This document shows positions 4,901-29,128 of a stretch of DNA of 29,128 nt, one piece after another. The translations under genes and the position numbers were made by a program. The notes beneath the pieces are model-generated. The model was given only the letters and a program-made list of their open reading frames with translations, was not told the origin of the DNA and did no database searches. Every line of letters starts with the position of its first letter. The first letter of the stretch is position 1. Source of the DNA: a virus; the IMG/VR virus record IMGVR_UViG_3300042691_036448, positions 1 through 29,128 of that record. One strand, given 5' to 3'.

Positions 4901-6685
4901 ATGGGAATCGCTTATATCCAGCTAAGCAACACTGGTGAAAATGTCAAAGGAGTATCCGATGACGCCAGGCTACGGGCTGCATTGAAGCGTGAGCAACAGG
5001 CGCACGCCACTAGAGCACGTGGCGGTGCAATCGATATCGCAGTACCTTCTGGAACACTCGTCCCTAGACGGACTGGCACGCCTTCCTGGGATGGCGGCGG
5101 GGGCGGGTGGATGGCAACATCCCTCGACACCGGAAACATATTCCTGCATGGACTGCAGAGTTCCATAGCGAGTAGGGGATCGGCACCAACACCGGTCTCG
5201 ACACAGGCGCCGAACTTCGACGCCATCGGGACTCCCGCGGTGGACAAATACGCCGCAGCAGTGCGCAACGTCTCATCCGCCATGGAGCGCCTGCGCGCAC
5301 TGCAGGCCGCACTTACTGAAGCCAAGACCAAAGCGGCCTTCGAAGAAATCGCCAAGGCCGCCTTCCCGCGAGCGCAGGTTGAGCAGTACAAGGATCAACT
5401 GATCGAGGCCCAGCTCTCGCTGAAGGCGTTCGCGAGCTCGAAATCGGACGCCTACGACCCAGATCGCGCTGCAATTGAAGTCCGCTATCAGAAAGAGCTT
5501 CTGATCATGGACCGCGAGCGCAAGGAGATCCAGGAAGCCGCCGCCAAAGCCGAGGGCGTCAAGAAAGCAGAGCTCGTCGAACTAGAGAAGAAGATCACGG
5601 AACAGATTGAAAAGCGCAAGAAAGACCTCACCGAGATCAAAAATCTCGAAGGGCAGATCCTCGCCATCACGCGAGCTCAAACAGTAATTGAAAGTCTGCG
5701 CAAGTCATTCAAAGACAATACGAAAGACATTCGCAACCAACAGAACGACCTAATGGTCGGTACGCGTATGCAGCTTGAGGGCTTTAGCCCTGAACAGATT
5801 GACACTCAAATGAAGGTCATCGCCGCGGCGCGGGAATACGATGCCAAGAACACTGAGATACAAAAAGACATTGCAGTAGCCGAGGACGCTATTGCAACAA
5901 AACGGGCAGCCGGTACTGCAGTAACCGCTCAGGAGATCCAGACCCTCAACAACCTCAAAAAGAGCCTGGAGGACGCCCGTGTCGAGTACAACTCCAACAT
6001 CCTGGCGATTCAAGGCTTCGCTGCCGCTCAACAGGCAGCAAAAACCGCGCTCGCGTGGCAGGTCGACAACCGCTGGGAGTCGGCCTGGGGTGGGATGAAA
6101 CAGGGCCTGGAGGAGTACGCCGCCAGCCTCGGCACCCTCAAGAGCCAGATGCAGGACTTCACCAAGAACACCCTCGGCGCGATGTCCAACGCGTTCGTCG
6201 AGCTGCTGACGACAGGTACGACGAACTTCCGCCAGCTCGCCGCCAACATCCTCACCGACCTGACTCGCATCATCTTCCAAACGATGGTGCTGAAGCCGTT
6301 GCTCAAAGCCCTTGCGTCACCCCTTGGCGGTGGCTCAATGTTCGGCTTCGCCTCCGGCGGCATCATGACCTCTAATGGTCCGCTGCCCCTGCGCTCCTAC
6401 GCCGGAGGCGGAATCGCCAACAGCCCCCAGGTGGCGCTCTTCGGCGAGGGCTCCAAACCCGAAGCCTTCGTACCGTTGCCAGACGGCAAGAGCATCCCGG
6501 TCAGCTTCGATCGCTCCGGCGCCACGAGCTCGGGCAATGTCAGCGTCAACGTCAACGTCGATGCCAAAGGCACCCAGGCCCAAGGGGACTCGAAGAAGAG
6601 CGAGCAAATCGGCAAGGTCATCGCCAGCGCTGTACAGGAGGAGATTCTCCGCATGAAACGGCCGGGTGGCCTACTGGCTAGCTGA
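1943..6685 (+). CDS. Tail tape measure protein with lambda gpH-type C-terminus
   Basis: This 1580-residue protein starts at GTG 1943 behind a purine-rich GGGCGGAG. Length sets tail length in siphoviruses. Residues 1-60 are charged and helical. Hydrophobic stretches occur near 110-150 and strongly at about 533-590 (GVVVGGVGAVVLALGKL), and long coiled coils lie at about 690-940 and 1090-1400. The C-terminus has the lambda tape-measure signature: FRQLAANILTDLTRIIFQTM, then FASGGI and IANSPQVALFGEGSKPEAFV. An insert at residues 947-1070 looks like a cell-wall peptidase remnant: STGRSTGPHLDIRS resembles the M23 loop where HLH is usual, but reads H960-x-D962, and HATRARGGAIDI (H1021, D1031) recalls M15 without its exact spacing. 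The first 2.3 kb is clearly more AT-rich than the last 1.5 kb, which suggests mosaic origin. Confidence 0.92.
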   Translation: MADFQLKVVAETQRAEKDLQRLDKTANEATKERKIKLDVPSIGQVSKNFSDLSKNLETAANDIKKFYGVARQLPGIGQQIQSYEKAVTGTAKTANALASNTKAGEILAHSFEKATSAAGSLVNDLAKVGFALFGIKEIVGVLQNAFGGLFNQTIGREIKLRETILKTQTTLASTAKVFKNGTEITDPYQKIVSLTGAVRKNIDSIRERSIALAGVTSGEVIEVFGIVASQISQIGGGLKEAEDLAINFAAALGTFGIPLYQARQEIGSILRGDITTDSYLAKALGITNEDVAKAKTQAGGLVKFLEDRLAAAVAGQKIAAQGFSGIVSNIRDLAELLGQRFGAALLDPLLNVLAAVFENLFRIKEQIFAIADGAGQVIGRVSAVGREIRSRAGMVSLGEIGLKDDSGQKALNNIQDAFQDVTVLIEGAAQRAIGAIAQAINTLKPSVRTVADAFIRLGKVFIEIKVDTFEALARVLANLITAATPLLATFTTLFNLYSRFLDLPVIQEFAKLSATMGLLKRAGMDLVTNAILIGNTLFRVVIPAVGALGTTFGVVVGGVGAVVLALGKLTLTLAGLTAAMAGVPGIAAGVAKALVDVSKNLSQSGQQSIEAGNNINTVAGGFKNLGETAKLAGLNIVKSLGWTLLIQAAVTVAVNAVGEFQKASEDITRQKRAELALTRLSSVYRNVGDDADYATKAARDFEQQLAQAEYGRVIERLEEIRKKLNDMRYEAQISIQTWGEFFRLFDIGRTLQRARGLSPDSVDAAKLIGEEQRLRDYKRKYEAEQNKKSAEENIRLEANNRKNMEQEIKDIRLRQENELFSKRQELAQKEVDIFRAAGELRIFQMEQANKKMMEGQEGASAAAMDALNTYLSIRERGELEIEAAKKQLVVEVANMEREIENYKLENAKTIAKIRKESAQYEENVAKNVEAIKRNGAQAQASPAPTEGFRVGSTGRSTGPHLDIRSPTGDANAVINEAMTIVKAWQAMGIAYIQLSNTGENVKGVSDDARLRAALKREQQAHATRARGGAIDIAVPSGTLVPRRTGTPSWDGGGGGWMATSLDTGNIFLHGLQSSIASRGSAPTPVSTQAPNFDAIGTPAVDKYAAAVRNVSSAMERLRALQAALTEAKTKAAFEEIAKAAFPRAQVEQYKDQLIEAQLSLKAFASSKSDAYDPDRAAIEVRYQKELLIMDRERKEIQEAAAKAEGVKKAELVELEKKITEQIEKRKKDLTEIKNLEGQILAITRAQTVIESLRKSFKDNTKDIRNQQNDLMVGTRMQLEGFSPEQIDTQMKVIAAAREYDAKNTEIQKDIAVAEDAIATKRAAGTAVTAQEIQTLNNLKKSLEDARVEYNSNILAIQGFAAAQQAAKTALAWQVDNRWESAWGGMKQGLEEYAASLGTLKSQMQDFTKNTLGAMSNAFVELLTTGTTNFRQLAANILTDLTRIIFQTMVLKPLLKALASPLGGGSMFGFASGGIMTSNGPLPLRSYAGGGIANSPQVALFGEGSKPEAFVPLPDGKSIPVSFDRSGATSSGNVSVNVNVDAKGTQAQGDSKKSEQIGKVIASAVQEEILRMKRPGGLLAS

Positions 6686-26334: not shown

Positions 26335-27480
26335 TCAGTACAGCCACTCCGCCGCAGGCGCAGCCCCCGCACCCGGTACAAATCCTCCACCCCCGCGGGT
26401 GTCCAGGTGAATGAACCCCCGAGCGCGGCCATCCCCGAGCCCACCGCTCCACCGCGCTCGGATCCACCGGTAGAACTCCTCCATGCTCCGGTTCGTCGGA
26501 TAGATGTCCATCGCCTCGCCCGTGGTGTGGCGCGAGCCCGGCACCCCACCAACCTGACCGTTGATCGGCTCCGGCCGGTAAAAACTGGTCACTCCCAGCG
26601 GCTGCCCCCACGCCTCGCGAACCTGCTGGAACGCCGCGGCAGTGCGCAGCAGGCGCGCTCGCACCGACGAGTTCGGTCCCGGAATCCGGCGCTTATCCCA
26701 CTGCAGCACCTCACCCACCGTCAGGTTCGGCGTAACCAGACACCCGAAGTCCGCCCAATCCACCGAGGCCGGCATCGCCTCGCCGCTGGCCTGCACCTTC
26801 GACCAGTGCGGCTCATACACATACCAAGTCCCGGCCCCCGCAGCCAGCTCAACCTTCGCGTGAGCGTCTTGAACACTTTCGTTATACGCGCATACCCCAT
26901 AGGTCTTGCCCTTCACCACGGCAACCTTCTCGGAATCCCCGAGCTCGGTGGCCGGCTTCGGCTCCTTCTTAAGCCAGGTGGCCTGGTGCGCCTCGATCTG
27001 GAACAGCAGCGCCTTCGGCTTGGCCTTCGTCACCACCGTCGGCTCGCCCACCTCCGGTAGGTGCTCGTTCATGAGCTTGATCAGCTTCTCTGCGTAGCGC
27101 GGGTCTGTGGCGTAGCCCTGCTTGACCAGCTCCTTCGCCGCCGCCGCCCGCGTCGGTGCCCGGTTGACCCCCTCGTACTGGTCCCAGTCCTTGTACCAGC
27201 GGGTTACGAGGTACCGCACGCACTCCCCGAGGTCGGCGAAGTCCATGAACTCCGCCTCGATATGCACCCGTGCCCCGTTGACGTACTCAGTCGTGAGCCG
27301 AGTCGTGCCGCTGCCCTTGAGCCCGAAGTAGTTGTACTCACCGCTGGTGTGCTGACCGAAGCCGCTCTCCAGTGCCCACTGAGCCGCCACGAGCTCGGGG
27401 AACTTCGCCCCGGCGTCCTTCGCCGCTGCCAGCACCCCCAACCAGTTGTTGGTGTACCCCTTCGGCTTGGAGCTGGCCAT
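26335..27480 (-). CDS. Endolysin with glucosaminidase-like and M15 peptidase domains
   Basis: The 381-residue minus-strand product degrades peptidoglycan at lysis. Residues 1-145 resemble a GH73-type glucosaminidase: FPELVAAQWALESGFGQHTS with the likely catalytic E38, then YNYFGLKG and a closing GYATDPRYAEKLIKLMNEH. A linker region of about 130 residues follows (possibly cell-wall binding). The C-terminal domain (about 235-375) is a peptidase of the M15 family (VanY-like D-Ala-D-Ala type): VTSFYRPEPINGQVGG, zinc ligands H318 and D325 in GSRHTTGEAMDIYP, and H358 in GFIHLDTRG. All key residues are present. There is no signal peptide, so it needs a holin. It is the only clear minus-strand gene, with its own promoter needed near 27481-27540. 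Confidence 0.9.
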   Translation of the reverse strand: MASSKPKGYTNNWLGVLAAAKDAGAKFPELVAAQWALESGFGQHTSGEYNYFGLKGSGTTRLTTEYVNGARVHIEAEFMDFADLGECVRYLVTRWYKDWDQYEGVNRAPTRAAAAKELVKQGYATDPRYAEKLIKLMNEHLPEVGEPTVVTKAKPKALLFQIEAHQATWLKKEPKPATELGDSEKVAVVKGKTYGVCAYNESVQDAHAKVELAAGAGTWYVYEPHWSKVQASGEAMPASVDWADFGCLVTPNLTVGEVLQWDKRRIPGPNSSVRARLLRTAAAFQQVREAWGQPLGVTSFYRPEPINGQVGGVPGSRHTTGEAMDIYPTNRSMEEFYRWIRARWSGGLGDGRARGFIHLDTRGGGGFVPGAGAAPAAEWLY

Positions 27481-27538
27481 GTGCCTAACCTGACTGGTAT
27501 GAGTTAAGGCTAAATACTGTTCATGTTTTGGATCACGC
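27481..27538. promoter_or_regulatory. Divergent control region between endolysin and HNH remnant
   Basis: This 58-base gap separates divergent genes and must hold the start signals for the endolysin. It contains AT-rich TTAAGGCTAAATACTG on the plus strand and, at its right edge, the 8-bp palindrome CACGCGTG (27534-27541), which overlaps the GTG start of the HNH gene. No clear -35/-10 pair could be fixed on either strand. Confidence 0.35.
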
Positions 27539-27833
27539 GTGACTGCTGAACAGTGGCGACCCGTCGTGGGCTGGGAGCATCTGTATGAGGTCAGCGATCT
27601 CGGGCGCGTGCGCAGTCTTCCTCGTTACATCCCGGCGGTGAACCGAGACGGGACCGGTCGCCTTAATCGATGCCGAGGCCAATTACTGAAAGGCACCCCC
27701 GACCGCGACGGGTCTCGATGTTTGCCACGGCCCAGCCGGGACTGCCGACAACAGTCGGCGCAACCTGCGGTACGACAGCCGTTCCGCCAACGAAGCCGAC
27801 AAGCGACGTTGGCCTAGCAGGCCGTCTGCTTAA
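27539..27833 (+). pseudogene. Decayed NUMOD4/HNH homing endonuclease (internal deletion)
   Basis: The GTG start at 27539 leads to an excellent NUMOD4 DNA-binding motif (WRPVVGWEHLYEVSDLGRVR) and a following RCRGQLLKGTPDRDG. The frame then runs into nonsense (CLPRPSRDCRQQ). The proper C-terminal part is found in another frame from about 27711: GLDVCHGPAGTADNSRRNLR followed by YDSRSANEADK, the usual end of the HNH domain, stopping at TAA 27831. The roughly 25-30 residues that normally lie between (strand with RTYRVHRLVL-type sequence, including first catalytic histidine) are missing. The short GACGGG at the joint suggests deletion between small direct repeats. It is likely inactive as a nuclease. 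Homing endonucleases of this kind are frequent mobile passengers in phages. Confidence 0.8.
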
Positions 27834-27850
27834 ATAACGCCATCGACGGG

Positions 27851-27872
27851 GGCCTCCTACTAGGCCATTTTT
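27851..27872 (+). terminator. Likely Rho-independent terminator after the HNH remnant
   Basis: GGCCT (27851-27855) and AGGCC (27862-27866) form a stem with loop CCTACT, followed by ATTTTT (27867-27872). The stem is short (5 bp) but GC-rich and the T-run is good. It shields the tRNA fragment and integrase from upstream transcription. Confidence 0.6.
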
Positions 27873-27910
27873 AGGCCAACCCCAGGAGACCACCCCCCGA
27901 GATCCCAGTC

Positions 27911-27953
27911 CGGGGCGTAGCGCAGCTTGGTAGCGCACCACTTTGGGGTAGTG
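27911..27953 (+). other. tRNA-Pro(GGG) 5' half: putative attP core
   Basis: The 43 bases run from the acceptor 5' strand CGGGGCG, through TA, the D arm GCGC-AGCTTGGTA-GCGC, A26 and the anticodon arm CCACT-TTGGGGT-AGTG. The anticodon read from the 7-base loop is GGG (proline). The match to a real tRNA stops at 27953: no variable loop, T arm (no TTCGAAT) or CGCCCCG acceptor strand follows. A tRNA fragment next to an integrase is the standard mark of a phage attachment site, with the host tRNA-Pro gene as attB. Phage genes on both sides indicate attP rather than attL or attR. The host sequence is not available here, so identity to a host tRNA is inferred. Confidence 0.75.
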
Positions 27954-28038
27954 CCTACTCCATCTACGCCACCAGAAGAAAAATTCCAGGCCAGCACTCG
28001 GATTCTTTGCAGCGCAGTGCTTTTAGGCCCGTGGCGGC

Positions 28039-29128
28039 TTGCTTAATTCAGCCAGGCTCGACCAAAACAGACCTAAGCTGACGGGGAAAGTAGTCCAGGT
28101 TTTAGTCCAGACCTTGGCCCTCGACGCTGCCCTACAAGAGCTGAACGCCCGCCTGAAGGCCGGGCACCAGAAGTGCGTTGTCGAGCTGCGCGGGGCCTCC
28201 CTGCACCTCAGGGCAACCCTGCCAACGCGTGACGATCCGTCGCAGCGACGCCAGCAGCGCATTGCCCTCGGACTGCCCGCCGAGTTCTCCGCCCTCCCCG
28301 AAGCCGAACGCAAAGCCGTCGAGCTGGGCCACCAGTTACGCACCAGCACCTTTACGTGGACTGCGTGGGAAGCTCCTGACGCGTCCGTCATCACCGTGTC
28401 GGACTTCCACGCTGCCGCCCAGGGCCTCCACGCCAGCAAGTACGCCAAAGCCCCCGAGCGCGGCACCGCCGCCTGGTCGAAGAAGTGGGCGCCGGCCCTA
28501 CGCAAACTGCCGCCCTCGGGGGTCATCACTGAGGGGGTCCTGCTCCGCTGCATCCGAAAGCTCCCCGAGGGCACTGCCGCCCGGCGCGACCAGGGCAACC
28601 TGCTGGCCCAGGTGGCCCGCTCCCTCGGCCTCGATCACGAGCCACTGCTCGCCGCCTGCCGCGGCTACGGCGTCGACAAGCTCACCGAGCGCGACATCCC
28701 GTCGGACGAGGCAATCGAGGCCGCGCTCAAGCAAGTCACTCTGCCGCACTGGCGCTGGACCTTTGCCATGTGCGCGGCCTACGGCCTCCGCCCCCACGAA
28801 TGCGCCGAGCTGATCTGGCTGGAGGACGACTGGATCGAGGTGGCCGACGCCACCAAGACCGGCAGCCGGCGGGTCACTCCCTGCCCGAGAGCGTGGGTAA
28901 GCCAGTTTGATCTTCACAATTTGTGTCGGCCGAGTCAGTCCGCCCAGGGCCTCAGCAAGGCGTTTTCCGACGCCCTCGCCAGAGATCAGGTGACGATCAA
29001 GCCGTACAACCTGCGGCACGCCTACGCGTTGCGCCTGATGAGCAAGGGTGTGGCCGCGGACCTGGCCGCCCGACTGATGGGGCACAGCCTGTCCGTGCAT
29101 CAGTCGACTTACCAGCGGTGGATCGAAG
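28039..29128 (+). CDS. int: Tyrosine recombinase integrase (partial at the 3' end)
   Basis: The frame is open from TAG 28024-28026 to the window end and has no ATG before 28768; TTG 28039 or TTG 28114 are the likely starts, so the start is uncertain. Catalytic residues of the tyrosine recombinase family can be read in order: Arg I (codon 28789) in AAYGLRPHE, Lys (28855) in ATKTGSRRV, Arg II (29014) in YNLRHAYALR, His in LMGHS, and Tyr (29110) in VHQSTYQRW. The usual first His of HxxR is Tyr here, a change I have seen in other cyanobacterial and cyanophage integrases. About 350 residues are present, so the protein is nearly complete. It lies 85 bases downstream of the tRNA-Pro fragment on the same strand, and integrates the phage there, by inference. 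The composition is very GC-rich. Confidence 0.9.
   Translation, partial: MLNSARLDQNRPKLTGKVVQVLVQTLALDAALQELNARLKAGHQKCVVELRGASLHLRATLPTRDDPSQRRQQRIALGLPAEFSALPEAERKAVELGHQLRTSTFTWTAWEAPDASVITVSDFHAAAQGLHASKYAKAPERGTAAWSKKWAPALRKLPPSGVITEGVLLRCIRKLPEGTAARRDQGNLLAQVARSLGLDHEPLLAACRGYGVDKLTERDIPSDEAIEAALKQVTLPHWRWTFAMCAAYGLRPHECAELIWLEDDWIEVADATKTGSRRVTPCPRAWVSQFDLHNLCRPSQSAQGLSKAFSDALARDQVTIKPYNLRHAYALRLMSKGVAADLAARLMGHSLSVHQSTYQRWIE

Follow-up and report, generated by a model that had tools for sequence, protein, structure and literature searches.

tRNA genes are the commonest docking sites for phages, and carriage of the 3' half of the target gene is usually explained by the sparing of the tRNA promoter. 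The stretch of viral DNA analysed here (29,128 nucleotides, hereafter the window) carries instead the 5' half of a tRNA-Pro(GGG) gene close to an integrase gene, which raises the question of how such a phage would integrate and what would become of the host tRNA and its promoter once it had done so.

An attachment site with the front half of tRNA-Pro(GGG)

The segment at 27911-27953 (+ strand), CGGGGCGTAGCGCAGCTTGGTAGCGCACCACTTTGGGGTAGTG, corresponds to positions 1-43 of tRNA-Pro(GGG) and matches exactly, over all 43 bases, at least 116 genome stretches, nearly all of them cyanobacterial and ranging from Prochlorococcus to filamentous genera. Comparison of the flanks showed that the identity between host and phage ends precisely at tRNA position 43: the hosts continue with GGGGTCG and the tRNA 3' half, and the phage with CCTACTCC. 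The segment is therefore the phage part of a common core. A sequence-only reading had taken it for an attachment site in tRNA-Pro(GGG), a claim that depended on host tRNA genes sharing the 43 bp, and the exact matches bear it out; the front half of this gene is thus confirmed as the docking site of a cyanobacterial virus. Neither ARAGORN nor Rfam called a complete tRNA in the window, as expected for half a gene, and we rejected a phage-encoded tRNA at 27911-27953. Two long relatives of the phage encode a tRNA with a CAT anticodon (Met or Ile2; L214, G003:36872-36944, and L215, G002:6626-6698), which is unrelated to the proline attachment site.

We found eight IMG/VR contigs with an identical 5' half, whose left flanks also agree (GATCCCAGTC or GATCCCAGTT). 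Five (L120, L121, L122, L124 and L125) share the right flank of the window and are called type A here; the other three (L118, L119 and L123) have a different right flank, type B. All 43 core bases are unchanged across both types. Since the core has phage DNA on both sides in all eight contigs, they represent attP sites and not integrated junctions. All viral records used here are linear and possibly fragments. INPHARED contained no phage record similar to the window region.

The tRNA half lies on the same strand as a tyrosine integrase gene (int; 28114-29127, + strand) that runs off the window. Its match to Pfam Phage_integrase (E 3.8e-5) scores below the gathering level, the ORF being cut by the contig end, and complete integrase relatives in the same place are 66-89% identical. 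On the other side, a lysin gene (glucosaminidase plus peptidase M15; 26335-27480, - strand) adjoins attP directly in most relatives that carry the 3' half of the tRNA. In both 5'-half types, a NUMOD4/HNH homing-endonuclease ORF stands between lysin and attP, directly upstream of the latter and on its strand. In the window it is a remnant (27539-27817, + strand) with a 98-bp deletion relative to L129, and longer versions exist in type A relatives and in type B (L129, 142 aa; L119). As one 3'-form phage (L135) also seems to carry an endonuclease-like ORF to the left of attP, the link is not exclusive and we discarded this gene as the cause of the 5' form. Between types A and B, identity is about 94-96% in a C-rich leader with no -10 element, placed directly before the tRNA half (27876-27910, + strand); in the HNH ORF it is for the most part 56-88%, and the right flanks cannot be aligned.

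Polarity of the core and integrase arm sites

The nearest relatives (L130-L139 and L190-L213) have the usual 3'-half form. In eight of them (L130-L133, L135-L137 and L139; integrase ~70% identical) the 3' half occupies the same place and is followed by a terminator and int, and a pattern scan for the 3' half of tRNA-Pro(GGG) retrieved 25 viral contigs, nearly all of them devoid of the 5' half. The contrast drawn by the sequence-only reading between a 5' half here and a 3' half in most other phages was thus upheld by related phages and prophages. One viral record (L207, IMGVR_UViG_3300020465_000013, ~5897-5960, minus strand) contains what seems to be a whole tRNA-Pro(GGG) whose 5' half has diverged.

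Integrases of the wider family are also found immediately behind an entire tRNA-Pro(GGG) in four host genomes, G203 (a contig of Vulcanococcus limneticus), G032, G293 and G253. Three of these (G253, G203 and G032) have in addition an attR-like partial copy, consisting of phage DNA followed by CTTTGGGGTAGTG and the 3' half. In G253 this copy is 80 kb away on the same contig; in G203 and G032 it is on another one, so that the junctions of two of the three prophage pairs are on different contigs. In the 3'-half attP/attR comparison, the point at which left-side identity begins ranges from CTTTGG to ACCACTTTGG (a range also given as CTTTGGGG to ACCACTTTGGGG). The overlap of this identity with the 5'-half identity (positions 1-43) is a segment of the anticodon stem-loop, CACTTTGGGGTAGTG (27939-27953, + strand), from which we infer that the anticodon arm is the crossover interval also for the integrase of the window. 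About 15 bp are enough for crossover in the 3'-half relatives, compared with the 43 bp kept in the 5'-half types.

The whole attP is larger than the 43-bp element first described and spans about 27861-28109. To the left, two direct repeats of TAGGCCA (27861-27867 and 27872-27878, + strand; TAGGCCA-N4-TAGGCCA, spacing 11) lie at -80 from CTTTGGGG; to the right, two direct repeats of TAGTCCA (28091-28097 and 28103-28109, + strand; spacing 12) lie at +150, and int probably starts directly after them, at a TTG at 28114. This scaffold of 7-bp direct repeats one helical turn apart, with one pair ~80 bp to the left of CTTTGGGG and the other ~150 bp to its right, recurs across the family. Left pairs with at least 6 of 7 bases matching were found at 18 of 22 related att sites and right pairs at 17 of 18, against 3.5% at control offsets. 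The motif itself differs by phage (TAGGCCA/TAGTCCA in the window; CGGTCCA, TAAGCCA, TAGGCAA or CGTGTGA in others), and within each phage it is exact or near-exact at both ends, the two ends of integrated prophages included; in G253, G203 and G032 the motifs of attL and attR agree. The repeat pairs behave as arm-type integrase sites. Their positions are unchanged between 5'-half and 3'-half att sites, which indicates that the attP of the window is normal for its integrase family, with only the polarity of the tRNA reversed.

A weak terminator-like hairpin at 27851-27866 (+ strand), in the stretch 27851-27876 previously proposed as a terminator, overlaps the left arm pair (27861-27878) and does not exceed what shuffled sequences yield (one found, 0.8 expected). 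The left arm sites are also surrounded by an inverted repeat, GGGGGCCTCC / GGAGACCACCCCCC (27848-27902), identical in types A and B, with a folding z-score of -2.7. A further integrase, 55% identical to that of the window (L142, G177:C49), has arm repeats (TAGTGAAGG) and no tRNA-Pro core upstream; as the tRNA-Pro of G177 is intact elsewhere, the att site of L142 appears to have changed or been lost.

We therefore consider it likely (probability of about 0.8) that a temperate tailed phage of picocyanobacteria has its attP at 27861-28109, with crossover in the anticodon arm of tRNA-Pro(GGG) and with the phage supplying the 5' half. The 43-bp identity, the arm geometry and the in silico restoration of the tRNA (see below) are direct observations, and the crossover interval comes from real 3'-half prophages. 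Junctions in host genomes were seen for 3'-half relatives; 400 Cyanobiaceae genomes, searched without mismatches, gave none for the 5'-half type, and no integrase hit was more than 55% identical to that of the window. An integrase of ~390 aa, 31-36% identical to the latter, is present in 381 of the 400 and is possibly a resident recombinase. This lack of 5'-half lysogens would fit a tRNA half captured by chance or kept as a relic, with the integrase using some other site, but the core lies exactly between the arm pairs, spaced just as it is in the 3'-half relatives with real prophages, and the 5' half has been kept on two integrase branches; we regard such an origin as very improbable.

Possible transcription of the rebuilt tRNA and of the integrase gene

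When the window was joined in silico to the host gene, ARAGORN recognized a tRNA-Pro(ggg) at attR, made of the phage left arm and the host 3' half, and none at attL. Equivalent junctions gave a tRNA-Pro only at attR for the 5'-half phage L118 and only at attL for the 3'-half phage L139. The earlier expectation that a full tRNA is restored at the right junction, behind phage DNA, and not at the left one was accordingly reproduced. In the course of events that we propose, the phage tyrosine integrase would cross over in the anticodon arm of the single tRNA-Pro(GGG) gene of the host. The junction on the int side would then consist of host promoter, tRNA 5' half, phage right flank and int, recognizable as host DNA and tRNA 5' half followed by CCTACTCC or ATTGCCCC; the far junction would consist of the lysin/HNH end of the phage, left arm sites, leader and complete tRNA-Pro, recognizable as GATCCCAGTY followed by tRNA-Pro. 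Since the tRNA is restored only at attR, a 5'-half phage would move the working gene away from its host promoter.

What could transcribe the rebuilt gene is less evident. The absence of a visible promoter in 27873-27910, remarked upon before, holds for the whole of 27400-28300, where we found no sigma-70-like promoter. The 45 nt preceding the tRNA half in the window contain no -10-like motif, and the same loose pattern occurs in 125 of 133 host upstream regions. Nor does the leader derive from the host tRNA upstream region, an origin that we rejected for lack of any similarity. The rebuilt tRNA may be expressed at a low level, or may depend on a phage or HNH transcript that comes from upstream.

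It is quite possible, if short of probable, that the rebuilt tRNA-Pro gives practically no product in the lysogen, with wobble by tRNA-Pro(TGG) and tRNA-Pro(CGG) covering the proline codons and the 5' half being kept as part of the left attP scaffold and not for restoring a working gene. The leader has no promoter-like site, and the one host genome checked possesses TGG and CGG isoacceptors in addition to a single tRNA-Pro GGG gene, so that a partial loss of tRNA-Pro(GGG) could be tolerated. However, the phage copy starts exactly at tRNA nucleotide 1 and none of its 43 bases varies in types A and B despite the much shorter identity that suffices in the 3'-half relatives, which points to selection for a functional tRNA. 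Such a function might be served by a promoter of the phage itself, either through read-through of the same-strand HNH transcript or from a -10-like TGCTTAAAT at the HNH 3' end (near 27827-27835), reading across the leader. The presence of an HNH ORF on the same strand just upstream in both 5'-half types and the conservation of TCTGCTTAAAT and the leader in A and B speak for this source, but there is no sigma-70 match, TGCTTAAAT is in part coding, the weak terminator-like hairpin intervenes in type A and the window has only a disrupted HNH gene; we find it possible but rather unlikely.

On the int side, the sequence-only reading had suggested that the host tRNA promoter could drive int in the lysogen, a suggestion that is borne out in part. 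The geometry fits, and type A phages have no convincing terminator in the right flank between the core and the right arm sites (27954-28090, + strand), the best hairpins followed by T-runs amounting to -3.2 kcal/mol in the window and -6.3 kcal/mol in a type A relative. The facing of promoter and int is nevertheless not peculiar to the 5' half, since tRNA and int are also co-oriented next to the 3'-half prophages of G203, G032, G293 and G253. In that layout, a terminator standing between core and int (about -15 to -20 kcal/mol; present in 9 of 9 3'-half phages tested) insulates int, and type B phages have one of -23.5 kcal/mol. It is therefore only in type A, with no terminator in between, that transcription from the host promoter may enter int, and a supply of int from this promoter in the lysogen is plausible for that type alone.

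Type A also has, just past the core (27954-27974), a CTACGCC-ACCA that can pair with the GGCGTAG of the tRNA half to form a tRNA-like end. A function of the type A attP as a compact tRNA-like RNA, built on this 7-bp complement followed by ACCA, is hard to credit: the RNA folds, but unexceptionally so (z about -1.5 to -1.7), it has no T arm and no ARAGORN or Rfam match, and the arrangement is absent from type B, which has a terminator there instead.

The integrase tree places type A with the 3'-half phage L210 (75% identical) and type B with the 3'-half phage L135 (84% identical, fully supported). The 5'-half label requires two changes on this tree, the starred branches forcing at least two, and independent cases are few. 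This leaves an exchange of the left block from one integrase lineage to another or two separate switches, and the conserved leader favours exchange or a shared constraint. The last 15 nt of the leader, CCCGAGATCCCAGTC (27896-27910), match the tRNA-Pro trailer of the 3'-half phages L198 and L203; the match scores 30, with a best score of 31 in 200 shuffles, about 1 in 200 being as good. It is only suggestive of a trailer having been joined onto the tRNA front when the 5' form arose. A broader proposal, which we consider unlikely and advance tentatively, is that the left block (arm sites, leader and tRNA 5' half) can be swapped as a unit, turning round the att polarity inside a single integrase family while keeping the intasome spacing; integration would take over the transcription of the sole tRNA-Pro(GGG) and, in type A, hand the host tRNA promoter to int.

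Comparison with known systems

In tRNA-dependent lysogeny, a core of roughly 10 bp goes together with a requirement for a phage-encoded cognate tRNA (PMC10865867). The likeness lies in related phages differing in how they handle the disrupted tRNA; the mechanism itself is ruled out here by a 43-bp core that restores the tRNA and by the absence of a phage tRNA-Pro, none being found in the window and only the CAT tRNA in G002 and G003, records that are possibly incomplete. The integrated element ICEKp1 offers a parallel on the int side, as its int is driven by a tRNA-Asn promoter when integrated and is attenuated by a terminator-like structure in the 5'-UTR (PMC13023037). Here too the host tRNA promoter would face int after integration; in contrast with ICEKp1, no attenuating structure is evident in type A, where expression of int from that promoter is a prediction. 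Archaeal pTN3-like integrases use the 5' half as attB and have the recombinant tRNA expressed from the integrase promoter, an arrangement described as seldom seen in bacteria (PMC8371274). The int of the window differs in lying on the other side of the core, reading away from it and not being split, so that the integrase promoter would not serve the tRNA.

A close likeness is with the anticodon-loop sites of tyrosine integrases (Williams 2002 class; Islander type A) in their usual 3'-half form, which share the integrase type, the core in the anticodon arm and a tRNA restored at the junction; the phage of the window has the 5' half instead, so that the tRNA would be restored away from int and lose the host promoter. 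Sites with the 5' half are already documented but rare: islands with 5' fragments make up 159 of 3919 (4%) in Islander (PMC4383910) and 9 of 88 in S. meliloti (PMC11476347), and, as in the window, the 5' half is in the element and the intact tRNA lies behind element DNA. The att sites described here provide a defined set of attB and attP for freshwater and marine picocyanobacteria, whose temperate phages are poorly known. What distinguishes the window from those islands is that its 5' form belongs to an integrase family which otherwise has the 3' form and shares its arm geometry. The two polarities are thereby directly comparable and, with one tRNA gene and equal arm spacing, provide matched pairs for studying what the loss of the tRNA promoter costs and how terminators insulate int.
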